Assembly: GCA_016858145.1 (NCBI GenBank)
Contig: JAEHOE010000178.1
Span: 143,918 to 207,917, forward strand
DNA length: 64,000 nucleotides
From: Edaphochlamys debaryana
Lineage: Eukaryota > Chlorophyta > Chlorophyceae > Chlamydomonadales
Direction: 5' to 3'
The translations under genes and the position numbers were made by a program. The notes beneath the pieces are model-generated. The model saw only the letters and a list, made by a program, of their open reading frames with translations, was not told the origin of the DNA and made no database searches. This document shows positions 49,001 through 64,000 of the stretch, in pieces. Every line of letters begins with the position of its first letter. Position 1 is the first letter of the stretch.

Positions 49001-49955
49001 CTGGAACACGCCGCCTCCCGCATCAGCGCCAGGGCCAGCGGCGGCGTCAGCGGCAGCGCCGCCGCCAGCGGCAGCGGCAGGGGCAGGGGCTTCGACAGAG
49101 CCAGTGCCGAAGTCAGGGCCTTGTAGGACAGGGAGGAAGGAGTGCTGTGAGCAAGACCCCTCCCCAGATCGACCCATCCCCTCAGGTGCGCATGCTTGCC
49201 TGGTCGGCCACGTAAAGCACCAGGGGAGCACCAGGGGAGCAAGAAGCTGCAGGAAGGTGCGCGTCCGTCCAGCAGACCGTGCTTGCTGGCTCCGACATCT
49301 GCGGGTTGGGGTTGGCTAGGGCGGCGGGGGTTGCAGCTAGCTTACGTACGTGCCGCCGTAGTTGCGTCTGGGCCCCGCAACCCTCACCGCTCCACAGTCC
49401 CTCACGACCCCACACCCTCCCTAGCCCACATCCTCGCGCCCCACCCCTCATCCGCGCCACCGGCCATGCCCGCGACGAGGCTCGTCGGCTCAAGCACGGG
49501 GCCCGGGCCGTGCGCACTTCATGCAGCTAGCAGGGGTGCGGATGGACGTCCAACGAGGCCCAAGACATGTGCAACTGCCTGCCGCAACCCCCTGCCCCCA
49601 TGCCCCGGGCCACTTTTCTGTGGGACATCAAGTATATTCGAATGGATTTGTAGTTGCAGTATTGTTGCAGCAGGCGCAGGCGCCCAGAATGAACGCATAA
49701 TTGTGAAGGTCATACACGAACATCCAGATTACCACGTTCACCATTCATGACCTGTTCCCCCTCCAGCCCTCACCTCGAGCACCCTGCACGCCGCCAGCAG
49801 CACCTGCCCCGGCAGCAGCAGGTGGCAGCCGAGGGTGGTGGCCGTCGCCAGGCCCGAAGAGGCCCACAGCAGGCCCCGCAGCTCGCCCGCAACGTGCGGC
49901 GCCGCGCGGGCAGGCACGGGGTGCGTGGAAGCCAAGGCGGACACCATAGGCACCA
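49001..49955 (-). pseudogene. Hydrophobic protein gene cut by the retroelement
   Basis: Two minus-strand exons fit in phase: 49774-49955 (LRGLLWASSGLATATTLGC, LLLPGQVLLAACRVLE, donor GTGAGG) and 49001-49119 (ALTSALALSKPLPLPLPLAA then LTPPLALALMREAACS, donor GTGTGT). Both are hydrophobic and look like pieces of a multi-pass membrane protein; the family is not recognised. The first exon runs straight into the left edge of the retroelement at 49956, so the gene's upstream part is either on the far side of the element (outside the window) or lost. The 49119 acceptor ends AAG rather than CAG, a weakness of the model. Confidence 0.4.
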
Positions 49956-50394
49956 TGACAGAGCACAGTACCGTCGCTGTCACAGTATGGTTGCCGGTTT
50001 GGAGTTGAGGTAGGGTGCTGGAGGTTTGTGGTTGGTCTGCTGGTTGGTGCCGGGGGTTACGTCTAGGGTTGAGACTAGGGTTGTGACACCAGGGTTTGGC
50101 CCGTGAGACACGTGGCATGAGCACCTGAGGTACGGCAAAGAGCCCTTCCGATTGGGGCGACTTAGGCGAACGCCCAGCTTCCGACTGGCAAGTCGGAAGC
50201 ACTACTTGCGCGGATCTACTCTGCTGTGACTGTAACTACTAGAGTGTTGCTGCTCTGCTGCCTCTAGCGCCTGCGGCGCAGTCTCTGTGCCATCCGACGA
50301 CTTCCCGAGGAGCCTTCGCTCGACCCAGCCGCTGAGCCTCAGCGCTGGTCCTAGAAGTGAGCCCAGGCACCGCCTGCGTCTTTGCTCGCCGATT
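49956..50394 (+). repeat. Left terminal repeat, block B
   Basis: Aligns with 63515-63950 from tgacagagcacagtaccg to ctttgctcgccgatt, with roughly eight substitutions or small indels. It contains gggttacgtctagggttgag and similar telomere-like words. It lacks the 50-base block A that precedes B at the right end. A long open frame begins inside it (50357). Confidence 0.9.
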
Positions 50395-53300
50395 TGCTTC
50401 CGACTTCTCTTTCGTCCGCTGGCGCCGCGCGCTACGGATTTCCAGACTCAATCGCTCCGGGCTCCGCCCGCGCTGCGATCTGGCTTCCAAGGAGGCTTCT
50501 AGGAAGTCTAAGCAACAGACTGCGTCTGGTGCTGATAGGCGTGGGCCCGCGGCCGCGCCTCTGCCGATTCCTCAGCTCACGCCTGTGTCCACGACCGCGA
50601 GTCGAGCTGCGGCGCGCGAGCTCCGTAGGCAAGAAGAGCAGGAGGCTAATCTCCCGATCGATCGTTTGGCTGCCCTGCTGAACGCCCGAAACGCAGGTAC
50701 TCCCATACGCTCGGCACCTGCAAGCCCAACTCGCGGACGAGGCTTTGCTGACCCGCGAACGGCTACAACTGCTCTTCGCGGCAACCCGCTATTTGAGCAA
50801 GACCCCACCGGCTCCGCCGGTGCGGGGCCGTCGAACTCCGGAGGCTCCGGTCCTTCTGGCTCCAACTCCGGTGGCAGCGCTGCTGGAGCGTCTTCGGGAC
50901 CGGGCCCCGCCCGCGTTCCCTCTCCGCCAGCCCCGCAGCCCTCGGCTGCGGGGGCTCTACCTGCACTCACCGAAGAGCTCGGACATCGCCTGCCGGCACC
51001 GCCCGACGCGCCTGGTGAGCAACAAGATCTCGGCCCGGGCCCCGCCCCGGCCGATCAAGCACAGCCTCCCCAGCCTGCGGCTGCGGGGGCTCTAGACTTA
51101 GCACCTGCTGAGGAGGGCGACGGGGAGCAACCTCCTCCCGCCCCGGCGCTGCCTGCGCCGGCACCTGCTGCCCAGCTAGCTCCCCGGGCTCCGCCCAGGT
51201 GGAGTGAAGACGAAGGCATGGGCGACCGCAACTGCCCCAGCTTTGATGCTAAGCCAACTTCCCTTCCCGCCTTCCTGCAGTCCGCTCGCCTGTTCGTCAA
51301 GCAGTGGGCCATGAGCGACCGAGGCGACAACAAGGCCCTGATAGCCGAGCTCATCCTCGCTGGCATGGCCGGTGGGCTCACCAAGGATGGGGGCAACAAC
51401 CTCAACCTGGTCGTGCAAGGCTGGTGCGCGACCGAGGGCGCCGATGCCCTGACTGAGCACAAGGACAAGTGGACCCTGCTCCACGCCGGCGTCGCCAATC
51501 CCCCCGAGTACAAGGGCCAGGCCAAGCTCCCTGACCTCAAGCTCGACGCCTGCGAGTACCTGCTGGAGGCCCTGGCCAAGAAGTTCGGCCGCGAGGACCC
51601 CACGTCCAAGAAGAGCTACGACAACTTCGGCGTCGAGCCCCTCGAGGACCCCATGACGGCGGGCGCCCGCTTCCTCTCCATCGTCAGGCCCATCAGCGAG
51701 GCCAGCATCTCGAGGCGCGTCCGCACCGAGCGCTGGCTCCGGGCCGTCATGGAGTCGCACTGGGTCAAGGCCAGCTTCATGAATGACACCATCAAGGTCA
51801 GCTACCTGGGCAAGGAGGACAGCGACCCCACCGCCTGGGACCTCGCTAAGGCCATCGTCCGCTGCCACGAAATCTACAGTGCCTTCCGGGTCGAGCAGGA
51901 GGCCGCCGACAGCAAGGTCAAGGACCCCAAGAAGTTCAAGGCGTTCGCCACGTCTGCTGGCCCCGTCTCCGAGAGCACCAGTGCCCCCGGCGTGGGCTCG
52001 GCTGACATCGCCCGCCTCTCGTCGCAGATCGAGCGCATGGCCAACAGCGTCTCAGCCCTGGCCACGCACTCCGGTCGCCAGGACCACGGCAAGGGCTACG
52101 GCGGCCAGGCGGGCGGGCGCCAGCAGCAGCAGCAGTCGAGCGGCGGCAACAAGCCCCGCTGGCCCAAGGCGGAGCCCGGCCCCGCCACCGGCTCCACGGG
52201 CGACTGCTCCTTCTGCAACGCCAAGCACCACTCGGTGGACTTCTGCACGGCCAACGCCAAGGCCGGCAACCTGACGGCGCTTCCCGGCCACCCCAAGTCC
52301 ATCAACATGGACAACGCCTGGGCGGAGCTGGTCCGCAAGAAGCCGGAGTACGCGGCGCTGCTCTCGGCGCCGCGCCAGCAGCAACCGCAGGGCGACCGCC
52401 CCCGCAGGCAGGACTACGCCAAGCCCAAGGACAACAACCGAGGCAAGGGCAACCCGCAGCATGCGGCCTACGCTGCTGAGGCCTCGCCGTACCTGCAGTC
52501 CCAGGCTCCGCCTGCGGCGCTGCACTACGGCCAGGGTCCCGCGTCCTACGGCTACGGCTACGGCTACTCCACGCCGCCGCCCTCGTCGTACGGCCACAGC
52601 TACGGCTACGGCCAGGGCCCTCAGGCTCCGCCTGCAGGTGCCTTCGCGTCCTCGGCCTCCTTCCGGGCCCCGGCGGCCCCGCCGCCCGGTGTGCCGCCGC
52701 CACCGTCCTGGCCCATGGGCTTTGGGGCTCCGCCTTTCTCGCACCCACCGCCATCCTCGTACGCGCCGAGCACGGCGTCCGCTCTGCACACGGACGTTCT
52801 CTCGGTGGCCCAGCTCCCGTACAACAGTACGTTCGTCACGTACGTGGAGTACGGCACCCCCGGCGCAGCCCTGGCCACGTCGGCTTCGGTCTCCCAGCTG
52901 GGGGGGGGTATGAGCGCGTGCAACAGCGTCGGCACCTTCGCCAGCAAGGAGACCGGCCCCGCCGTGTCCCCGACTGGGCCGCCAACGCCAATCCAGGGCC
53001 AGACCGTGTGGCCGCCGCAGGCCCCCTCGACCGCGGCCTTCAACACCACCAAGGAGCCTATGCCTGCCAGCTTCCGGCAGCTGCCCCCCGGGCCGCTGCC
53101 CAGCTCCATGCGCCTGCCGCCCGTGGAGCAGGTCTCCTTCTCGCACATGAAGGACGGCAGCTCTAACGTCCGCTTCGGCCCCATGGCTCCGGGCAAGACG
53201 GCGGCGGCGCTCGAGATCCTGGGCAAGATGATGGCCGAGCTGCTGGATCTGCTCAAGGCCCCCGAGGGGGTGCCCGAGGCCTCTGCCCTCGCCTGCTCAT

Positions 53301-55726
53301 CTACGGCCGCCACCGCCGGCTCCAAGATGGAGGAGATCAAGCAGTACCTGAAGAGCGAGCTCGCCAGCTCCCTTCACTACGTCGACAACAGCGACCCCAA
53401 GCGCGGCGCTGGCCTGCTCAAGGCCGACGGCACCCTGATCTTCCCTCCCGGCATCGGGCCAGACACCATGTGCAACACGGTGGGTCTGATGGTCCAGAGC
53501 CTGTACGAAAACCTTGGCGTCAAGCTGGAGCCCTGTAACGCCGGCGTCAAGTCCCTGCGCCAGAGCAGCCGACCCCTCGGCATCGCCCGCGTATGGAACG
53601 TCATCACGCCTGGCACCGCGTCCGAGCTGCGCGTCTGCGGGGACTTCCTGGTCGTCCCCGACGACTGGGCGGCCGGCCTCTTCACCATGCTGTGGGGCGG
53701 GCCCCTCTTCCACCAGTGCGGCATGCTGTACGACTACTACCCGCGCCCGCACCTCCGCTTCCGCTCCGGGCTGCACCAGGGCGACGAGACCATCAACGGC
53801 CACGTGGCGCTGGTTCCGGCCCCGCCGGAGCTGGAGAAGGTGGCAGCCTCGCTCCGCGCCTGCTACGCCACGGCCCTGCTGCCCTCTGAGCCCTCGCCAC
53901 CCCCGGTGGACGAGGCCGAGGCCCGGCTCAAGACCGTCTCCGTGCACATCCCCACCGTACGGTTCGATCCCAGCGACTGCGCTCGCCCACTGGCGTCTGC
54001 GCTGGGGCTGAGCGACCGCCGCATTCGCATATGGGACTGGAGCCCCGCGGACGGCGCCAGCGTGGCCTTCGCCACCAGCCTCGACACTGCGGAGGAGCTG
54101 GACGAGGAGGAGATGCTCGTGTACGAGGACGAGGAGCTGGCGGAGGCTGACGCGCGTGGGGAGCTGTCAGGGCCCCAACTCGAGGAGGTGGAGCCGCACC
54201 ACACCCAAGTGCCTACGTCCGCCGCCTCGGCTCCGCCGAAGGGGGGCCCCGAGGTCCAGGCCCTGGCTACGCACGACCACCCAAGACGCCCCGCCTCATC
54301 CCGAGATGAAGGGCGTCAGTCCAGCCGCGGCCGCTCCCGCTCCCGCGACCGAGGTGCTGAGAGCCGAGGCCGTGACCACGAGCGCGAGCGTTCAGGTGAC
54401 CGTCAACCCCGCCGCAGTGGCAGTGGTGGAGCTGGCGGCCGCCGACCTTCGGGCTCTCCACAGAGGTCCCGCAGCCGATCCCCTGGGACGCCTGGACGGC
54501 TCTCAGGCTCACGCCGCCCCTGCACCCTCTGCGGCTGTCTGCGCGAGGCGACGAAGCTGCAGGCTTACCGAGATCTGGCCGTCTTCCCCGGTCACGAGAA
54601 CTACCGAGGTGCTGGCCCCAGGCTCGGCAACCCGCTGCGCTACCCACCTTGGTTGCGGCACAGCCAGGACTACTGCCTGCTGCACGCCTTGCTGGGCGGA
54701 CCCACGCTGCTGCGGTGGACCCCGGAGCTGCAGGACTCGCTCGGCAGCCTGGACATCAAGGGCTTCTTCCAGCCCATTAACGAGGTCGATCTGCAACCAT
54801 GGCCTGAGGACCTGCCTGCGCTCCCCCTGGCCAAGGCGTACGACCGAGATGACAAGCAGCTTCGCCATGAGTGCCGGTGGACGGAGGAGGTGCTGGCGCG
54901 CATGGGTCCCGACCTAGATCGCCCCAGGGTCTCCGTCTACCGCCAGAGTGAGCGCCACGTCCACTCCAGTACCTACTTCATCGGTGCGTACATCGACTGG
55001 TGCCGTAAGCTCCGGGACTGGCTCGCCTTCAAGGGGCAGACCATCGGCTGGCGGGAGCAGCGACCGCTCCCGGCACCTCAGCCTGCCCCGCCACCGCCTC
55101 GCAAGGAGCGCAGCCGGCCCCCTGAGGTGCCCCCTGCCGCAGCCGCCGGGCCCTCGACCTCGGCGACGCCCCAGCACGACGCCGCGGCGGCGGGTCCCAG
55201 CGGCAGCGCCCAGGTGCGCAACCGAGAAGCGCTTGAGGCTGGCGCCCAAGCCCCGCCTGCGGTGCCCTCACCCAAGCGCCAAGCGACCGCGATCCCCGCG
55301 ACTCGGGCTCCGCCCGCAGCTCCGGAGGTGGCAGCTTCGGCGGACCAAGGCCCGCGTCCCGCGGGGGCCGAGCTCCCCCCCAGGCAGGTAGCTCGCCCCC
55401 AAGGCCCCGGTGCTGACTGCGGCTCTGGCGTCGCGGTACCCTTACCTGCCGCCACCGCTGCCTGCCCCAATAGTCCGCGATGCCCTCGTGCCTCCGCTAC
55501 CGGCCGAGCAACCTGGTTCGGACCCCCAAGCCCTGCCGGCCAGCCAGCAGGCCTACATGTGGCGCCGGGCTTCGGCCATCATGGTAGGAGACGTGATCTT
55601 CGGCGAAGGCTGCGCGGACACGTATCAGCGCTATACGGAACGCGAAGCCGCGGTCGCCCTGCCGAGGCCGCCGCCTCCCGTCTGCGTCCTGGCATCCGCC
55701 TGCTACCACGGGTCCTCACTCACTGA
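50357..55726 (+). CDS. Gag-like polyprotein (ORF1)
   Basis: Open for 1789 codons, but the first ATG is at 51218 (codon 288). Residues numbered from 50357: a Ser/Pro/Ala-rich leader; a capsid-like helical region from about 288 (FDAKPTSLPAFLQSARLFVK ... RLSSQIERMANSVSAL); a CCHC zinc knuckle at 617-630 (CSFCNAKHHSVDFC, spacing C-x2-C-x4-H-x4-C); long Tyr/Gly/Pro-rich linkers; a folded region (~1010-1160) ending LWGGPLFHQCGMLYDYY, faintly like the end of an aspartic protease; an Arg/Ser-rich tract (~1314-1380, RGRSRSRDRGAESRGRD); and a further folded region (CTLCGCLREATKL onwards). Gag packages element RNA into particles. The next ORF overlaps it by about 317 bases in the +1 frame, suggesting a frameshift or reinitiation for Pol. 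Confidence 0.8.
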   Translation: MSPGTACVFARRFASDFSFVRWRRALRISRLNRSGLRPRCDLASKEASRKSKQQTASGADRRGPAAAPLPIPQLTPVSTTASRAAARELRRQEEQEANLPIDRLAALLNARNAGTPIRSAPASPTRGRGFADPRTATTALRGNPLFEQDPTGSAGAGPSNSGGSGPSGSNSGGSAAGASSGPGPARVPSPPAPQPSAAGALPALTEELGHRLPAPPDAPGEQQDLGPGPAPADQAQPPQPAAAGALDLAPAEEGDGEQPPPAPALPAPAPAAQLAPRAPPRWSEDEGMGDRNCPSFDAKPTSLPAFLQSARLFVKQWAMSDRGDNKALIAELILAGMAGGLTKDGGNNLNLVVQGWCATEGADALTEHKDKWTLLHAGVANPPEYKGQAKLPDLKLDACEYLLEALAKKFGREDPTSKKSYDNFGVEPLEDPMTAGARFLSIVRPISEASISRRVRTERWLRAVMESHWVKASFMNDTIKVSYLGKEDSDPTAWDLAKAIVRCHEIYSAFRVEQEAADSKVKDPKKFKAFATSAGPVSESTSAPGVGSADIARLSSQIERMANSVSALATHSGRQDHGKGYGGQAGGRQQQQQSSGGNKPRWPKAEPGPATGSTGDCSFCNAKHHSVDFCTANAKAGNLTALPGHPKSINMDNAWAELVRKKPEYAALLSAPRQQQPQGDRPRRQDYAKPKDNNRGKGNPQHAAYAAEASPYLQSQAPPAALHYGQGPASYGYGYGYSTPPPSSYGHSYGYGQGPQAPPAGAFASSASFRAPAAPPPGVPPPPSWPMGFGAPPFSHPPPSSYAPSTASALHTDVLSVAQLPYNSTFVTYVEYGTPGAALATSASVSQLGGGMSACNSVGTFASKETGPAVSPTGPPTPIQGQTVWPPQAPSTAAFNTTKEPMPASFRQLPPGPLPSSMRLPPVEQVSFSHMKDGSSNVRFGPMAPGKTAAALEILGKMMAELLDLLKAPEGVPEASALACSSTAATAGSKMEEIKQYLKSELASSLHYVDNSDPKRGAGLLKADGTLIFPPGIGPDTMCNTVGLMVQSLYENLGVKLEPCNAGVKSLRQSSRPLGIARVWNVITPGTASELRVCGDFLVVPDDWAAGLFTMLWGGPLFHQCGMLYDYYPRPHLRFRSGLHQGDETINGHVALVPAPPELEKVAASLRACYATALLPSEPSPPPVDEAEARLKTVSVHIPTVRFDPSDCARPLASALGLSDRRIRIWDWSPADGASVAFATSLDTAEELDEEEMLVYEDEELAEADARGELSGPQLEEVEPHHTQVPTSAASAPPKGGPEVQALATHDHPRRPASSRDEGRQSSRGRSRSRDRGAESRGRDHERERSGDRQPRRSGSGGAGGRRPSGSPQRSRSRSPGTPGRLSGSRRPCTLCGCLREATKLQAYRDLAVFPGHENYRGAGPRLGNPLRYPPWLRHSQDYCLLHALLGGPTLLRWTPELQDSLGSLDIKGFFQPINEVDLQPWPEDLPALPLAKAYDRDDKQLRHECRWTEEVLARMGPDLDRPRVSVYRQSERHVHSSTYFIGAYIDWCRKLRDWLAFKGQTIGWREQRPLPAPQPAPPPPRKERSRPPEVPPAAAAGPSTSATPQHDAAAAGPSGSAQVRNREALEAGAQAPPAVPSPKRQATAIPATRAPPAAPEVAASADQGPRPAGAELPPRQVARPQGPGADCGSGVAVPLPAATAACPNSPRCPRASATGRATWFGPPSPAGQPAGLHVAPGFGHHGRRRDLRRRLRGHVSALYGTRSRGRPAEAAASRLRPGIRLLPRVLTH

Positions 55727-58700
55727 CGACGTCACGCCCATGGACCGCAACGACCTGTGCACCGGTCTGCTGTTTGGCGACAACGAGCGATCCCGGTGGG
55801 AGTCACAAGGCCTCCCCAAGATCGAGATCACGTGCGCGGGGTTCGACATCACGTCGGCGTCGTACAGCGTCGACATGGGCCTCACCGGGGCATGCTGCCT
55901 CATGCGGCAAGACCTCTTCAACGGCGTTCCCGTCGCCGTGCTGCAAGACACAGCGGTCACTACCGCCGGTCTCTACCACGAAGACGAGGTGATCAAGGTC
56001 TTCGGAGCGCGCGGTGTCAAGAAGTCGTGCTACTCCACCAAGCGCACGGCACGCGACGTACGCATCTTCATCAACGGCACCCTGGGATGCGACGGCGCCC
56101 CAGGTGAACCCGCAGCGATCATGGTGCAAGTGCCCGTAGCACCCGTCCTGCCCGTGGAGGACCTGCCCTACGGCATCGTGTTTGGGCGCCCATTCCTCTC
56201 CCTGCTGCGGGCAAACATCAGCGTCCGCACCTCAGGCGACGAGTACTGGCTGAGCTACCCCGTCGACGACACCGCCTCCTGGCGCACTCGGCTCTGGCTC
56301 TGCAACCGGTACACGGACAACGCCATCCGCTTCTGCGCCCTAGCGACGGCCCCGGCTTCGAGCAGGGGGGGGGTAGAGCCCGAGCCCGAGTCGGAGCCCG
56401 AGCCTGAGTCCAAGCTCTCCTCGTCTGCAAAGCTGCTCGAGCCGGCCCCGCCGCTCGCGACCATGCCCGGGGACGAGCAACCCGACTCTGCCAGTGGTAA
56501 CTCCGGCCCCGGCCCCGCCGGCGAGCGGGATGGGAAGGCGCTGCCCGACAGCAAGTGCAGTGCGACTCCGCGCCAGCTGCCCTTCTGGGTCAAGGCCAAC
56601 ACCCCCGCCAAGCGCAGCATCAACGGGCCCGGCGCCGCCGGTCGCAGCCCCGCTGCGGAGCCCCTCGAGACTGGTGAGTCCTCGGCTCCCGGCACCGCCG
56701 GTACTGAGTCGCAGGCCAAGGGCTCCAGCTCCCTCCCCAGCTGCGGCCTGATTGACCATGACGTCTACGGCGTGTCCTTCACTCGTGCCCTGCACCTGCT
56801 CTGCGATCTCGGTGCCCGCACGATTGCTTACGGTGCCACCACCTTCGGCATCTGGGTTCCCCTCCCGCACTGCCCCAGGGCCATCGCGCGCCTGATCGCG
56901 GCCAGCCCTGTCTACGGCCCCGTGCAGCCGTACGACACCTTCGGTGCCAACACCACCGACACCGAGTATGAGGACTGGCACTCGACCAGCAGTGAGGAGG
57001 AGTCTGATGATGACGCGGAGCTAGACGAGCAGCTGGATGACTGGATGGAGCACGTCCAGTGGAGGCTGGGCTGCATGATCCTGCGTCGCGTCACGCGCAG
57101 CATCAACCGCAAGCTGGCCCGCCAAGCGAGGCGCGAGCTGCGCCGACGGGAGGAGCTGCGTGCGCAGGCCTTCGCTGCTATGGAGCAGGCCCGTCGCCGG
57201 TACCTGAGCCTGGTCAAGCGACAGCTCCTGCAGCAACGGGCGGAGCGCTGGGCGGCCACGGCGGGCGCCAAGGTGCCCAAGCCCAGGTACGCACCGCCCG
57301 ACGCCAACACCAAGTCGGCGACTCCGGCGCGCTGGCGCCTCAACAGCTACAAGACCTTCACCTTCGCCATCGTGATGCTGGTCTTCCTGGGCTGCTGGCG
57401 GTTGTCGGACGCGACGCCCAACTGCGTCCCGCATCCGGCTTACCCTCAGGGGGGGCAGTGGCTGCCTCCGAGCTGGGCGCAGCTGGAGCAGTCGCCCGCC
57501 ACCACCCCGCTGGAGCAAGCCATGCGGCGCATCCAGCTGCGCGACCCGGCACCGCCGGCGAGGCGCTCGCCGCCCCAGGCCCCGCCTGCGGGCTCTCCCT
57601 CGGCTGACACACCTCTAGCAGAGCCACCGAGCACCTTTGTCACGGGCACCGCACCTGCAAACGCATCTGGTGTAGAGAGGCCTGCGGCTCCGCCGACAGA
57701 GCCGCCTGACGTAGCTGCACTTGGACCTTCTCCCGCGAATGTGACGACTCCCGACGGGGCTAGGACACCGCCCGAAGACTCCACTTTAGTCAAGCAGGAG
57801 GCAGGCTATACCTTGTGCATACGTCCGGACATGACCGAGGCACAGCGTGACGATCTGAGAGCGTTGTTTGGCAAGTACGATCACTTGTTCGCGCGGAGTC
57901 TGAAGGACATCGGGTGCTATAGAGGCGAGTTGGGGCCAGTGAGACTCGAACTCAAGCACAACAACCCGATATTCGAAGCCCCGCGACGACATTTGGCTGC
58001 CGAGCGGTTGGTCGAGGATGCCAAGTGCCGCGAGCTGTACGATGCCGACATTATCGAGCCGTCCAACTCCACGCAGTACGCGATGAATGTAACCCTGCCA
58101 CGTAAGAAGGGAATTGACGGTTCGTACGAATCCAACGAGTACCGCTATTGTGCGGACGCGCGCCGTATAAATGCAGCGAGCGTGCGCGATTATTTCCGAC
58201 CGCCAGCGCCGGAAGACCTGTTCGATCGCATCCTGGGCGCGCGATTCATTACTAAGTGCGACTGCCGCGCCGCGTTCAACCAACTGCCGCTCGCCGAGGA
58301 GGATCGCGATAAGACCTCGTTCTGGTGGAACAACACCCTCTGGCGGTACAAACGGTTGATGTACGGCGCCGTCAACGCCACGGCAGCTTGGCAGCGAGTA
58401 CTTTCGCACCACGTGCGTAAGTACGGCCTGCAGGACTGCGTGTACCTTTTTGTCGACGACGCCGCAGTAACCGGCCGTACGGCAGAGGAGCACGAGCAGA
58501 ATCTCGCGCGGTTCCTCGCAATGTTGGACGAGATCAACATCAAGCTGCATCCCGACAAGACCGTAGTCGCGGCAGACAAGATAGAGTTCCTGGGCCACAT
58601 GGTGAGCGCTGACGGGCTCCGCCCGGTTCAGGCCAAGGTCGCTGCGATCCAAGCCATCCAGCCCCCTCGCTCGCTGACCGAGCTCCAAGCCCTGCTCAGC

Positions 58701-59915
58701 CTCTGCAACTACTATCGTTGTTACATCCCCCGCTTCGCCTGCATCGCCAACCCGCTCTACGAGCTCACCAAGAAGGGCGTCACGTGGGGTCCCGAAACCT
58801 GGCAGCCGCGCCACCAGGAGGCCTTGGACCAGCTCAAGGCCGAGTTCTCGACCAACGACCGGCTGCTGCGCAAGCCTGATCCCAACCGTCAACTGATCCT
58901 GCACACTGACTTTTCCAATGTAGGCATCAGCGCCGTCCTAGGCCAACTGGATGACGAAGGGCACGAGTACATGGTAGCCTGCATCTCGCGCTCACTCAAC
59001 GTGCACGAGCGCAACTACACCTCCTACAAGGGTGAGATGCTGGCTGCCTGCTGGGCAATGAAGATGCTGCGCCCCTACCTGATAGGCCCACGCTTCATCC
59101 TGGTCACCGACCACGCGCCCCTGCTCTGGCTGATGGAGAACCAAAACCTAGTGGGGCAGTACGCTCGCTGGGCACTCTTGATGCAAGAGTACGACTTCGA
59201 TGTCGCCCATCGGCCAGGCCAGCTCCACTATAACGCTGACACCCTCAGCCGCTCGCCTCTGCCCTCGAGCGCTGATGGCTCTGGAGCCCGCATGGATGAG
59301 GACTCCGACGCCAAGCCGCCGCCACCTCGGCTCGTCCCGTATCCGACCGTCACGCCCTCGGCGCAACCCACGGCGTTCATGTCTGCAGCCCAAGTCCTGG
59401 CGCTGCGCGCTCGCGAGGAGTACTCCCTGCTGGCCACCGTCACGGGACAGGGCTCCGCCCTCGCGCCCTCTCCCGACGAGTGGCTCGCTGGCGGCAACGG
59501 CACGGCCTCTGACCCCGTCGAGCGCTTCGCCGACCCCGAGTGCACTGCGGCTCAGCTCCTGACCCGACAGGCCAACCTCACCGCCAACCGCGTCGTGCGC
59601 GAGGCCCGAGACGCCCTCCGGGCGACCTCGCTTTCGCCGCCGCGTCCCCGCCGAGTTGCCGAGGGCCGCACCGTCGCCCTCGACACCAGTCTGCTCTCGC
59701 ACCACTTCCTGGAGCACGCCCTCACGGAAGGGCTGGTAATCGTGGAGTGCGGCACCTCCGCCGCCACGGGCCTCGAGGCCTGCCTCCGGGCGGGCTGGAC
59801 CGTGCGCCGTTATCACACCCCTGGGCGCGCCCGCGCAAGAGCATTCGCTGCTGCGCCGCCGCCTGGGCTGGCTCCGTGCCTCCTTTCCCCGACAGCTTCG
59901 CGGCTCCGCCGTTGA
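55410..59915 (+). CDS. Pol ORF2: protease-like, reverse transcriptase, RNase H, start of C5-MTase-like domain
   Basis: Open for 1501 codons. The first part has VDMGLTGACC and YGIVFGRPFLSLL, resembling a retropepsin in which D-T-G has become D-M-G. A Glu/Ser/Asp-rich linker and a basic coiled stretch follow, with one hydrophobic segment at ~648-667 (TFTFAIVMLVFLGCWRL). Reverse transcriptase: motif A-like CDCRAAFNQLPL, motif B-like YGAVNATAAWQRVL, catalytic FVDD at residues 1014-1017, then FLGHMVSADGLRP. RNase H: LHTDFSNVGISAVLGQ (Asp ~1167), YKGEMLAACWA, VTDHAPLLWL, HYNADTLSR. These are Ty3/gypsy hallmarks. The C-terminus enters a methyltransferase-like domain (IVECGTSAATGLEACLRAGW) and then leaves frame near 59825. 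Confidence 0.9.
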   Translation: MLTAALASRYPYLPPPLPAPIVRDALVPPLPAEQPGSDPQALPASQQAYMWRRASAIMVGDVIFGEGCADTYQRYTEREAAVALPRPPPPVCVLASACYHGSSLTDDVTPMDRNDLCTGLLFGDNERSRWESQGLPKIEITCAGFDITSASYSVDMGLTGACCLMRQDLFNGVPVAVLQDTAVTTAGLYHEDEVIKVFGARGVKKSCYSTKRTARDVRIFINGTLGCDGAPGEPAAIMVQVPVAPVLPVEDLPYGIVFGRPFLSLLRANISVRTSGDEYWLSYPVDDTASWRTRLWLCNRYTDNAIRFCALATAPASSRGGVEPEPESEPEPESKLSSSAKLLEPAPPLATMPGDEQPDSASGNSGPGPAGERDGKALPDSKCSATPRQLPFWVKANTPAKRSINGPGAAGRSPAAEPLETGESSAPGTAGTESQAKGSSSLPSCGLIDHDVYGVSFTRALHLLCDLGARTIAYGATTFGIWVPLPHCPRAIARLIAASPVYGPVQPYDTFGANTTDTEYEDWHSTSSEEESDDDAELDEQLDDWMEHVQWRLGCMILRRVTRSINRKLARQARRELRRREELRAQAFAAMEQARRRYLSLVKRQLLQQRAERWAATAGAKVPKPRYAPPDANTKSATPARWRLNSYKTFTFAIVMLVFLGCWRLSDATPNCVPHPAYPQGGQWLPPSWAQLEQSPATTPLEQAMRRIQLRDPAPPARRSPPQAPPAGSPSADTPLAEPPSTFVTGTAPANASGVERPAAPPTEPPDVAALGPSPANVTTPDGARTPPEDSTLVKQEAGYTLCIRPDMTEAQRDDLRALFGKYDHLFARSLKDIGCYRGELGPVRLELKHNNPIFEAPRRHLAAERLVEDAKCRELYDADIIEPSNSTQYAMNVTLPRKKGIDGSYESNEYRYCADARRINAASVRDYFRPPAPEDLFDRILGARFITKCDCRAAFNQLPLAEEDRDKTSFWWNNTLWRYKRLMYGAVNATAAWQRVLSHHVRKYGLQDCVYLFVDDAAVTGRTAEEHEQNLARFLAMLDEINIKLHPDKTVVAADKIEFLGHMVSADGLRPVQAKVAAIQAIQPPRSLTELQALLSLCNYYRCYIPRFACIANPLYELTKKGVTWGPETWQPRHQEALDQLKAEFSTNDRLLRKPDPNRQLILHTDFSNVGISAVLGQLDDEGHEYMVACISRSLNVHERNYTSYKGEMLAACWAMKMLRPYLIGPRFILVTDHAPLLWLMENQNLVGQYARWALLMQEYDFDVAHRPGQLHYNADTLSRSPLPSSADGSGARMDEDSDAKPPPPRLVPYPTVTPSAQPTAFMSAAQVLALRAREEYSLLATVTGQGSALAPSPDEWLAGGNGTASDPVERFADPECTAAQLLTRQANLTANRVVREARDALRATSLSPPRPRRVAEGRTVALDTSLLSHHFLEHALTEGLVIVECGTSAATGLEACLRAGWTVRRYHTPGRARARAFAAAPPPGLAPCLLSPTASRLRR

Positions 59916-60290
59916 AAGCCCCTGGGCCGCGCTGCCGCCCGGTCCGCTCACCAACGACCACCTCCTTGCTGCTTCCGCCAGGTCAGGGCAGCAGTGGTTG
60001 GTGCTCGGCAACCTAGACTCGACCCTGGCTCCGCCAGATAGAGTGCTAGAGCTCCTTGGCAGGCTCCAAGAGCTGCAACCCCGACTCCCGCCCGGCTTCC
60101 TGCTGGAGCGCGAGCCTCCAGCGTCTGCGGACACGCCCTTCGGGACCTGCCTCACGCTGGACACCGCTGCCATGGGCAGGGCCCAGCACTCGCTGCGCGC
60201 CTTCTGCACCAACCTCGCGGCCCCCGAGCACCTGCGCAAGGTGGCAACATCTGGTGCCTGGAGCCCCGGTAACCTCTCGGCAGCTGCAGC
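59690..60290 (+). other. Cytosine-C5-methyltransferase-like domain, degenerate and frame-split
   Basis: In frame with ORF2: SHHFLEHAL then IVECGTSAATGLEACLRAGW, resembling motif I (F-G-G-x-x-t-G-l-e-a-l-l-r-a-G) of DNMTs. After a frame change near 59825: LGWLRASFPRQL, QQWLVLGNLDS (position of the Pro-Cys motif IV, with the Cys missing), LPPGFLLEREP (position of the E-N-V motif VI) and GRAQHSLRAFCTNLA (compare the R-A-R-Y-F-W-x-N-L-P segment of DNMT3-type enzymes). Order and spacing match a C5-MTase, but the catalytic Cys and the ENV are not intact, so activity is unlikely in this copy. Identification rests on motif order read by eye. Confidence 0.55.
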
Positions 60291-61821
60291 GGCACCCTCG
60301 CGCCGCCTGCCCCTCTGCGAGGCACCCCTCAGCGAGCCCTACTCGGCCTGCGACGTGCCGGGTCGCCCCGTCACCGTCTTCCCGCCGGGCAACCTCGCCA
60401 CTATCCAGCTAGCCTCCACCGCCTCGGCCGTGCCCTCGCCGCTGCTGCCAGAGGAGATAGCCGCCCTGACCGGCCTGGAGCCTGCTTCGCTGCTGGAGCG
60501 GCGCAACGACGGCACCCTCGCCGTGCCCTCCGCCATCGACGCCCTGCAGCAGGGTCTGCAGACTCCAGCTGCTGCACGCATCCTTCTCTGCGCACAAGCC
60601 ATTCAACGCGCTTTCGTCACCCCGCACCACATGGCTCGCATGCCACCTCAGCAGGCGCCACCGGCTGCCCCGCTGGGGGGGGGTAGGGAGATTGAAAACA
60701 ACACAGCGGCGCAGCCTGCAGCCCTGGTCACCACCGCGCTGCAGCACCACCAATCCAACGAGCACTGGACTTCTGCCCTGGTCTCGGCCGCCGCCGACGC
60801 ACAGGAGTCCCGCTACTGCGACCCTTGGGAGGACAAGCAACTGCTCCACTACCTCGCCCAGGGCACCTGCCCCGCCGGCATTGTCGGAGAAGCGGCTAGA
60901 CGGGTGGCGCGTCGCGCCATCAACTACCGCTTCGACGACCGGAGCAACCGCCTGTACCGCCGCATGCCTAACAGCACCATGCGCGAGGTACCCCCACCTG
61001 AGCGCCGCCAAGCCATCATCCAGGAGGCCCACCACCGCCTGGGGCACTGGGGAGCTCGCCGCACCCTGTGCCTGGTCCAGAACGGCTACTGGTGGCAAGG
61101 CATGTCCAGGGATGTCGAGTATGTGGTTCAGCGCTGCCCCCTGTGCGATCGCGCCAACACCGTCGGTAACGTCACTCCGCCCGAGTTGCACCCCCTGCCA
61201 ATCCGCGGGCCCTTCTTCCGCTGGCACGTGGACCTGGCTGGGCCCCTCACTCGCACGAGCTCCGGCTACGAGTACGTCATGGTCTGCGTCGAGGCTTGGA
61301 CCAAGCACGTGGAGATGATCCCGCTTCGCTCCAAGGGCTCGGAGGAGGTGGCCAACGCCTTCCTAGCCAACGTCCTAGCCCGCTTCTCGGCGCCCGCCGA
61401 GGTGGTGACCGATGGAGGCACCGAGTTCCAAGGCGCCTTTGCCGCCCTGCTCGAACAATGTTTCATCGACCATCGTCACACGTCGCCCAACCACCCGCAG
61501 GCCAACGGCGCTGCGGAAAGGGTTGTGCAGGTCTGCAAACGCTCTCTGCGCAAGTACTGCGCTCAGTACGCCTCCGCCGAGCGCTGGGACGAGTACCTGC
61601 CTTGGGTCCTGATGGGCTACCGCTGCTCCCCTCAGAAGTCCACCGGCAAGTCCCCGTTTGAGCTCATGTACGGCGCACCGCCTGCTGTGCCCTCGGCGCC
61701 GCCGAGCTGTGGGCAGAGGCGATCGACCCTGAGGCCGATCCGCAACGGGCCGACCAACTCGTCATGCTGCGCTCACACAACGTGCAACAGGCCGCGCCTT
61801 TCAACGGCCAGAACCTGCTGA
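59826..61821 (+). CDS. Pol ORF3: end of MTase-like domain and DDE integrase
   Basis: Open frame, +1 relative to ORF2; no ATG is needed if it is part of Pol, and the first in-frame ATG-independent start lies near 59998. Residues numbered from 59998. After the methyltransferase-like remainder (~1-95) and a linker comes the integrase: an HHCC zinc domain (H345/H346-RLGH ... C380-PL-C383), then the catalytic core with Asp412 (WHVDLAG), Asp472 (VVTDGGTEFQG) and Glu507 (NHPQANGAAERV), exactly D-D-35-E. The core is complete. The frame runs out after ELMYGAPPAVPS near 61690, where the next frame continues the integrase C-terminus (AAELWAEAIDPEAD). Integrase inserts the cDNA into the host genome. Confidence 0.88.
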
Positions 61822-62501
61822 CGGCGCAATGGCGAGACCGCCACAACTACGCCCGCGTGCGAGCTGGCGGCTACAAGCCCCGCTTCACCAAATTCAACGT
61901 GGGCGACTACGTCTACGTCATCCTGCGCAATCAGAACAACACGCTCCAACTGCCCGTCCGCGACACCGTGCTCCGCATTGTGGCCGTGAGCCCAGAGGGA
62001 GTTGCCGAGCTGATGGGCCGCGACGGCACCATCCGCAAGGAGCACGTGAGCAACCTTGCCCCCTGCCACCTCCAAGACCTGGACCCAATCGTCGATCCCC
62101 GCATCGCGGTGCCGCCGCTGGACCTGCCCTGCGAGATCTGTGCCTTCCCAGGCGACGAGTCCAAGATGGTCATGTGCGACGGGTGCGGCACCGGCTGGCA
62201 CCTGTACTGCCTTCGACCCCCGCTCCAGCGCGTGCCCCGCGGCACCTGGACTTGTCCCGACTGCCAGTGCCGCGGCGTGACACCGGCAACGATTGATCAG
62301 CTACCTGCCCCCGTACCGCGCGAGGCACCGCAGCCGCAGATCTTCCCCTCCGCCCAAGCGCGCCGTCGGCTCAGCGAGGCCAAAGCGCTGGAGGGCGTTC
62401 CCTGCTCCCGCAAGGTCCGAGACCCCGCGACCAACACCTTCGTGAACCGTAGGGGCACCCTGCACTACAAGTCGGAGCGAGCCGCACTCTCGCCCCATTG
62501 A
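61690..62501 (+). CDS. Integrase C-terminal region with PHD finger
   Basis: Continues Pol after a frame change. First comes an integrase C-terminal SH3-like part (FKFNVGDYVYVILRN is near the observed KFNVGDYVYVILRN, then VLRIVAVSPEGVAELMGRDG). At 62128-62268 follows a complete PHD finger with Cys4-His-Cys3 ligands: CEIC, CDGC, GWHLYC, CPDC, and the conserved Trp before the last pair (TWTCPDC). It ends with a basic tail (KVRDPATNTFVNRRG) and TGA at 62499-62501. PHD fingers read histone H3 tails. Chromodomains at this position steer chromoviral integrases, so the PHD could target insertion to particular chromatin. That role is inferred. Confidence 0.85.
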
Positions 62502-63266
62502 GGCGCGCTACACTGACGGCACCGCGGAGCGCCTGACTCTGCGAGCAGCCAAAGCATGCGCTCAAACCGTCCACCACGGCCCTCGTCACGGCGGCTGGGG
62601 TTCCGCCCTTAGTCCTGCCCGACACCTGGACCTATCTTCGCCAAGCGCCCGAGCTGCTGCGCTGCTGCAGCTGCGCTCCGTGCCCGGGCTGGCCTCCAGC
62701 CTGCCTGAGTCCTTTCCCACGGGTACGCACCCTGCGCCCGCTGAGGAGGCGCTCAACCTGCTTCTGGACCACCTGGACGCAAGCCGATCGCCCGTCATTC
62801 TGGACCCGTGCGCCGGCGACGAGACCTGGCCAACGCGCTCCGCGCGAGAGGCTACTCCGTCTGCGCCAACGGGGGCCGGGCCACCGAGGCCCCGGGCTGG
62901 CCCCGCTTGGATCCCCTACAACCTGGGACCTACCGCCGCCTCGCCACGCCCGGCGAGTCCTGGCTCATCATCTCTGCTCCGCACCCGGAGCTCCTGCCCT
63001 TCTGGCTGCCCTTGGCCGTCGCCATGGTGCCGCTAGTCGTGGCCTTCATCCCACGGCGCATGCTGACGGCCCCGCCGGACGCATGGGCCGCCCTGCTCAA
63101 CGCCTTCACGGAGGACGAGCGGCTGGCCATCATCACTGGAGACACCTGTGGATACGTCAACGGAAAGCCTGGAGCTTGGCTGTTAGTGTTCCGGGATGCG
63201 ACCATGAGGGCGCAGCTGATGAGGGGTATCGGGAAGGGACGCGCTGGGCACTGGGTGCATGCGTAG
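62497..63266 (+). CDS. Amino-methyltransferase-like domain at the 3' end of Pol
   Basis: Begins by overlapping the previous stop in another frame (IEARYTDGTAERLTLRAAK), continues through ALNLLLDHLDASRSP and reaches VILDPCAGD (62794-62820), a class I SAM-binding motif I. The reading then moves frame by a small indel at ~62820 and continues DLANALRARGYSVCANGG, as expected after motif I. WLIISAPHPELLPFWLPLAV sits where N6/N4 amino-methyltransferases have their (D/N/S)-P-P-(Y/F/W) motif; here it is S-A-P-H, so the catalytic motif is altered. It ends GKGRAGHWVHA-stop. DIRS-type elements carry adenine-methylase-like domains; one in a DDE-integrase element is unusual. Confidence 0.6.
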
Positions 63267-63453
63267 ATAGGGAGGTGAACCGAGGGAGATGAGTTCTGCT
63301 GGCTGTAGCCTGGTGAGGACACTTAGCGAGCATGGGGGAGGATTGAGGTTTCTCTGCTGGAGGGAACTGTTGTGTACAGCTGAGCGAACTGCTTCTGACT
63401 TAGCGTATGGCCTCGAGGCCGCCTGACTTCGCGTTTTTGGCTCTAGAGTCGCC

Positions 63454-63464
63454 AAGGGGGGGAG
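63454..63464 (+). promoter_or_regulatory. Polypurine tract
   Basis: aagggggggag directly precedes, and overlaps by two bases, block A. This is the position from which plus-strand DNA synthesis is primed in retroelements with LTR-type replication. Confidence 0.6.
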
Positions 63465-63512
63465 TTCGGTCAGCCGGCTGCACTTTGCCGTAGCCCATAG
63501 TGTGTCCTGACA
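63463..63512 (+). repeat. Block A, inner copy
   Basis: Fifty bases from agttcggtcagccggctgca to gtgtgtcctgaca, identical to 63951-64000. Two bases (gc) separate it from the right-hand block B. Confidence 0.9.
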
Positions 63513-63514
63513 GC

Positions 63515-63950
63515 TGACAGAGCACAGTACCGTCGCTGTCACAGTATGGTTGCCGGTTGGAGTTGAGGTAGGGTGCTGGAGGTTTGTGGTTGGTCTGCTG
63601 GTTGGTGCGGAGGGTTACGTCTAGGGTTGAGACTAGGGTTGTGACACCAGGGTTTGGCTCGTGACACGTGGCATGAGCACCTGAGGTACGGCAAAGAGCC
63701 CTTCCGAGGGGGCGACTTAGGCGAACGCCCAGCTTCCGACTGGCAAGTCGGAAGCACTACTTGCTGCGGATCTACTCTGCTGTGACTGTAACTACTAGAG
63801 TGTTGCTGCTCTGCTGCCTCTAGCGCCTGCGGCGCAGTCTCTGTGCCATCCGACGACTTCCCGAGGAGCCTTCGCTCGACCCAGCCGCTGAGCCTCAGCG
63901 CTGGTCCTAGAAGTGAGCCCAGGCACCGCCTGCGTCTTTGCTCGCCGATT
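63515..63950 (+). repeat. Block B, right copy
   Basis: Copy of 49956-50394. On the left side B runs into the coding region (gatt|tgcttccgac); here it runs directly into a second block A (gatt|agttcggtca). Confidence 0.9.
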
Positions 63951-64000
63951 AGTTCGGTCAGCCGGCTGCACTTTGCCGTAGCCCATAGTGTGTCCTGACA
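63951..64000 (+). repeat. Block A, outer copy at the window edge
   Basis: Identical to 63463-63512 and ends exactly where the window ends, so whether the element stops here or continues into another B cannot be seen. Confidence 0.85.

Follow-up and report, generated by a model that had tools for sequence, protein, structure and literature searches.

A Ty3/Gypsy-type retroelement of Edaphochlamys debaryana with split terminal repeats, a PHD finger and two methyltransferase-related domains

We analysed a stretch of 64,000 bases (the window) from the green alga Edaphochlamys debaryana, the final 64 kb of the 207,917-base contig JAEHOE010000178.1, in which a retroelement copy extends from position 49956 to the contig end at 64000. 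The element is probably of Ty3/Gypsy type. Besides a DDE integrase and a PHD finger it carries a DNMT3-related domain that lacks the catalytic motifs and an altered domain resembling amino-methyltransferases; its terminal repeats are split, and its ends are likely to be restored through circular or end-joined complementary DNA (cDNA) cut at CA^GC. The copy in the window is broken. Elsewhere in the genome the polyprotein is encoded by single open frames of 4303 (C376), 4329 (C9) and 4332 (C3) amino acids. All searches of the genome covered 141.9 Mb in 502 contigs.

Anatomy of the element

The features of the window copy are as follows (position, strand, feature, basis).

49952..49955, no strand: ACCA, 5′ target-site sequence adjoining the element; identical to ACCATGCC, which flanks the copy at the start of contig C17 on its 3′ side (sequence)
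49956..50394, +: A1, left terminal repeat, begins TGACAG (repeat comparison; 5′ boundary at this base)
50336..55726, +: first open reading frame (ORF), Gag-like, 1796 amino acids, zinc knuckle CX2CX4HX4C at 52205-52246 (ORF list, motif)
57843..58676, +: reverse transcriptase (RT) (Pfam RVT_1 1.4e-17; coordinates from tblastn with an open copy)
58854..59276, +: RNase H (Pfam RT_RNaseH 2.7e-31; coordinates from tblastn with an open copy)
59667..60687, +: putative DNMT3-like, C5-methyltransferase-derived domain without catalytic motifs, frame broken near 59820 (homology to open copy)
60940..61182, +: integrase H2C2 zinc-binding domain (Pfam 7.5e-17; HHCC)
61195..61677, +: DDE integrase core, D,D-34-E (Pfam rve 3.2e-8; spacing measured)
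61692..62096, +: integrase C-terminal region, frame change at 61692 (tblastn with an open copy)
62112..62276, +: PHD finger (Pfam 1.3e-11)
62713..63263, +: amino-methyltransferase-like C-terminal domain, motif IV altered, frame broken near 62815 (homology to open copy)
63454..63462, +: polypurine-tract-like AAGGGGGGG, immediately 5′ of B1 (sequence)
63463..63512, +: B1 repeat, 50 bp (repeat comparison)
63513..63514, +: GC spacer separating B1 and A2, CA-GC-TG junction (sequence)
63515..63950, +: A2 repeat (repeat comparison)
63951..64000, +: B2 repeat, right end of the element (ends CTGACA) and contig end (repeat comparison)

Compared with an open copy, the frame shifts near 59820, within the C5-like domain, and near 61692, 62478 and 62815, and the gag-pol region is split into two overlapping ORFs. 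A1 and A2 differ by 4 mismatches in 435 aligned bases, with 5 gap columns. The G+C content is 0.62-0.73 across the window (per 2 kb). The ACCA at 49952..49955 is consistent with a 4-bp duplication, whose pairing we infer, since the 3′ flank of the window copy is missing.

RT-RNase H is followed by an H2C2-DDE integrase within one Pol, as is typical for Ty3/Gypsy elements (Pfam, open frames). No phage integrase was found by Pfam in the frames searched, whereas rve and H2C2 were. These matches, together with that of the PHD finger, agree with the first-pass annotation of the window. Its integrase was described there as D-D-35-E; the measured spacing of the core behind the HHCC finger is D,D-34-E. 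The Gag assignment made there holds for position and zinc knuckle, from which the label is inferred because no Pfam family matched the first ORF.

Copies in this genome and relatives elsewhere

The C-terminal domain was found at 76 genomic places (E <= 2.2e-64), some of them possibly alternative assemblies of one copy, and at eight more with 38-39% identity. The order RT-RNase H, DNMT3-like domain, H2C2-integrase, PHD finger and C-terminal domain is common to five open copies of three subfamilies, to the further family C41 and to relatives outside this genome. Both methyltransferase-like domains are kept at full length in the open copies and in Gonium and Tetrabaena. The Gypsy-like polyprotein first proposed from the broken window copy, with a PHD finger and two domains related to methyltransferases, is therefore borne out by intact relatives of several families with the same order. 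Among the matches listed, the named eukaryotic sources were Gonium pectorale, Tetrabaena socialis, Monoraphidium neglectum and Haematococcus lacustris, all of them green algae. Viral and genome contig collections searched for relatives yielded no confirmed locus. One polyprotein (P0022) stands in a record named Minisyncoccia bacterium metagenome-assembled genome, which suggests eukaryotic contamination of that assembly, and another (P0078) has an additional PF00293 domain.

Methyltransferase-related domains and PHD finger

Direct Pfam searches of the window frames gave no methyltransferase match up to E 1 for either of the two regions, and PF00145 was not found in the whole genome at E <= 0.001 (six frames, introns not handled). 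Profiles built from five window-family copies reached best E values of 0.53 and 0.98 against PDB, which is not significant, and A5 gave no match to PDB. Support for a methyltransferase ancestry of both regions comes through their relatives, whose profile matches to methyltransferases disappear when the sequences are shuffled. Chance similarity is excluded, because shuffling abolishes these matches and the C-terminal domain recurs at so many places in the genome. By homology to an open copy, the two regions lie where they had first been placed (59667-60687 and 62713-63263). The outcome by which the first-pass annotation was prepared to give them up, no profile match for either, did occur in the direct search and was overturned by the profiles of the relatives.

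By profile and predicted fold, the domain at 59667-60687 is related to DNMT3. The fold prediction proposed at the outset was made for the Gonium relative P0001 and returned a DNMT3 fold, with a mean predicted local distance difference test score (pLDDT) of 64 and about 85 over the first 150 residues. For the catalytic motifs, 134 proteins were aligned, 128 found by search and six from this genome; the sample draws on the best 120 of 206 matches of one search and is skewed towards kin of P0008. The catalytic column holds Cys in 123 of these proteins, including P0006, a broken model with an accidental Cys. The other 11 comprise P0001-P0005, which include Gonium and Tetrabaena proteins, and the six copies of this genome. 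All 11 also lack the motif VI EN pair and the motif VIII Arg pair, although some retain one residue, whereas most Cys-bearing relatives retain motifs IV, VI and VIII. A working C5 enzyme in the window clade appears unlikely; relatives that retain the cysteine may still methylate DNA.

An RT-integrase tree of 109 of the 134 proteins was midpoint-rooted and holds relatives of this element only; the Cys-less P0003 was dropped for length. The window-family clade comprises ten tips, none with a genuine catalytic Cys (support 1.0). The Cys-less C41 copy was placed apart, beside P0044 (0.998), whose column has Cys, with intervening nodes at 0.72-0.84. The grouping of the C41 copy with P0044 implies two or more losses of the cysteine, barring a regain. 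The P0008 domain has 107 genomic matches, and four chosen stretches (L079-L082) had no GWEC-type motif in the frames examined. In P0009 and P0010 the DNMT3-like domain is N-terminal, ahead of RT, and not between RNase H and integrase.

The C-terminal domain has the class I fold of N6-adenine and other amino-methyltransferases. Its motif IV deviates from the form (N/D/S)PP(Y/F/W) of these enzymes: it reads SAPHP or SAPPP in the window family, while many relatives have SPWF or a PP form and others vary. The best PDB match of the PHD finger was KMT2D (2.8e-18), and CHD4 and KDM5 also matched. A PHD-like pattern is present in 119 of the 134 aligned proteins.

The first-pass annotation had suggested that both methyltransferase domains act on the element's own cDNA and thereby mimic or manipulate host chromatin. 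Both domains are indeed related to methyltransferases, and the motifs are kept by most Cys-bearing relatives. Moreover, SymbioDIRS-Dnmt3 enzymes are capable of de novo CG methylation, whereas a tested SymbioLINE enzyme showed none in yeast (PMC5890265). For the window element, self-methylation is unsupported because the catalytic Cys and the motif VI and VIII pairs are lost and the second domain has SAP in motif IV, where many relatives have SPW or a PP form. We consider this explanation improbable.

Selection on the polyprotein

The ratio of non-synonymous to synonymous substitution rates (dN/dS) was determined with NG86, which ignores G+C bias. The main ranges derive from three pairs of open copies; the pairs C40-C89 (too similar) and C3-C115 (diverged) were left out. 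Values were 0.06-0.14 for RT, 0.03-0.07 for the integrase core, 0.06-0.08 for the PHD finger, 0.15-0.21 for the DNMT3-like domain, 0.25-0.28 for the C-terminal domain and 0.14-0.40 for the linkers. In the diverged pair C3-C115 the parts ranged from 0.17 to 0.76. With all values below 1, the polyprotein frame is under purifying selection.

These data bear on whether the methyltransferase-like parts are functionless passengers, retained merely as in-frame spacers of the polyprotein, a view that we regard as possible if rather doubtful. Their dN/dS is linker-like and exceeds that of RT, integrase core and PHD finger in all three pairs, barely so in C115-C219 (0.15 versus 0.14 for RT), and in the RT-integrase tree the motif disappeared independently in the C41 family. 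On the other hand, the domains are kept at full length in open copies, Gonium and Tetrabaena, and they show 46-48% identity to the distant family and more than 100 invariant columns of 351 across five copies. In C3-C115, the two domains (0.49 and 0.55) lie below two of the three linkers (0.76, 0.72 and 0.35).

Split repeats, junction and target-site duplications

The element is arranged as A1-coding-B1-GC-A2-B2, and its 3′ end is not a plain long terminal repeat (LTR). B1-GC-A2 followed by B2 was present in 20/20 loci examined (of 40 places found, two fragments aside), and in 40/40 scored places A1 passes directly into the coding side and not into B. Two complete, identical terminal LTRs starting right after the polypurine tract, as expected for Ty3/Gypsy elements, were not found; the repeats follow the order A1-B1-A2-B2 that marks PAT and Ngaro elements of the DIRS order. 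The left end of the element lies 52 bases inside the point set by the polypurine tract. A standard LTR element begins right after its tract.

Two further families have the same arrangement and the same GC: C89, where A spans 401 bp and B 52 bp by BLAST, and C41, where they span 543 bp and 53 bp. In the C115 family, tract, B1, GC, A2 and part of B2 were seen. All three families have a G run at the position of the polypurine tract. The sequence past B2 varies between copies, except in pairs with one flank in common. In the C41 family (L079, C41:826800-834500; L086) an array of ~110-bp tandem repeats begins about 150 bases past B2.

Ten of the 13 copies with both flanks (C10, C9, C40, C143, C166, C81, C123, C242, C41 and C89) have a 4-bp duplication, a short target-site duplication of fixed length as in Ty3/Gypsy elements. 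Membership in the DIRS/PAT group was considered and rejected on account of these duplications and of the DDE integrase in place of a tyrosine recombinase. The element behaves like a Gypsy element whose ends are displaced.

Proposed mechanism for restoring the ends

Transcription would start in A1, and so both ends would be incomplete in the RNA. The B1-GC-A2 segment, in which the two ends lie back to back, could be used by reverse transcription to fill them in; the product would be A1...B2 linked across GC. With B-GC-A taken as the LTR, the integrated element would correspond to a two-LTR circle opened at CA-GC-TG. The integrase would then remove GC after CA on both strands and insert the DNA with a 4-bp stagger; since GC is self-complementary, both 3′ ends would read CA^GC. 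This resembles the retroviral processing site CA^GT. The PHD finger, which the first-pass annotation saw as choosing the target, is predicted to link the complex to histone H3 tails, and the DNMT3-like domain most likely serves as a non-catalytic scaffold or DNA-binding module, similar to DNMT3L, a non-catalytic DNMT3.

The circular route is deduced from sequence. Several observations weigh against this mechanism. No clear primer-binding site follows A1, and no conserved TGG-type site was seen there by eye in three families. In the C115 family, A1 was not found in two upstream stretches and B2 matches over 25 bases only. Three of the 13 copies (C457, C460 and C463), all on contigs of 16-17 kb, lack matching flanks; their flanks equal those of other copies, which suggests that the assembly switched between copies. 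For the proteins, the predicted structure of the DNMT3-like domain loses reliability past residue 200 (mean pLDDT 64; template modelling scores about 0.3-0.6). The dN/dS of both methyltransferase-like domains is no lower than that of the linkers in the three pairs, so that a specific scaffold role is weakly supported and the claim of a precise function is weakened.

Alternatively, the split repeats might be restored by template switching during reverse transcription, with no circle, and the integrase might act on ordinary linear cDNA. The 4-bp duplications and CA termini, which are typical for integrase on linear ends, would fit this route, as would the polypurine-tract-like sequence. It accounts less well for a left end inside the tract-defined point and for A2-B2, which duplicates what would be the junction of two LTRs, taking B-GC-A as the LTR. 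We rate the linear route as unlikely, though worth considering beside the circular or end-joined one.

A misjoin at the contig end as the source of the repeat layout or domain mixture is extremely improbable: the window element does stop at the contig end and flanks are swapped on small contigs, but the artefact is already contradicted at the family level by the same arrangement in all loci examined and two further families, by matching 4-bp flanks in most copies and by open frames of more than 4300 amino acids in other copies.

A broader reading can be offered tentatively. The element might belong to a widespread green-algal lineage in which a DDE integrase acts on a circular CA-GC-TG junction, similar to the copy-out-paste-in route of bacterial insertion sequences (IS). 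Its chromatin module would pair a PHD finger with a DNMT3-derived domain; the latter would be active in most relatives and would have become a DNMT3L-like pseudoenzyme in the volvocine clade.

Comparison with known systems

Methylase-encoding Gypsy and DIRS elements are stated to occur in green algae (Morozov 2019, PMC6338049). Among the closest known elements is KnitGypsy-Dnmt3 of Klebsormidium nitens (de Mendoza 2018, PMC5890265), which shares the Gypsy domain composition, a Dnmt3-type domain inside Pol and DIRS-arranged repeats with the window element; the two are compared here by description. Its functional residues are reported as conserved, whereas they are lost in the window clade. SymbioDIRS-Dnmt3 (PMC5890265) likewise has Dnmt3 in Pol and A-coding-B-A-B repeats; it differs in using a tyrosine recombinase, in contrast to the DDE integrase of the window element and the 4-bp duplications of its family. 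The terms PHD, circular and target site are absent from the main text of PMC5890265. The architecture, first thought to be new, is not unique to this element. Three features are new as far as the open PMC literature searched reaches: a Pol that also contains the PHD finger and a second methyltransferase-like domain, a clade that has lost the catalytic residues, and target duplications combined with a constant CA-GC-TG junction.

The predicted DNMT3 fold links the element to DNMT3L and the DNMT3A-DNMT3L complex. Unlike in DNMT3L, its PHD finger is closest in sequence to KMT2D, CHD4 and KDM5 and is located apart from the methyltransferase-like domain.

PAT, TOC, kangaroo and Ngaro share the split direct repeats A1-B1-A2-B2 but are tyrosine-recombinase elements without an integrase gene; a methyltransferase domain is likewise present in part of the DIRS order, and DIRS1-like elements are described as integrating with no duplication of the target (PMC3266345, PMC4157794). 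Split direct repeats serve as a mark of tyrosine-recombinase elements (PMC4157794). In three families of this genome they accompany a DDE integrase and duplicated target sites, and the layout may therefore reflect the restoration of ends and not the type of recombinase. The wider family forms a natural series of DNMT3-like domains, from those with all motifs to those with none, in otherwise similar polyproteins. This series makes it possible to test if methylation or binding is the reason why retroelements retain methyltransferases.
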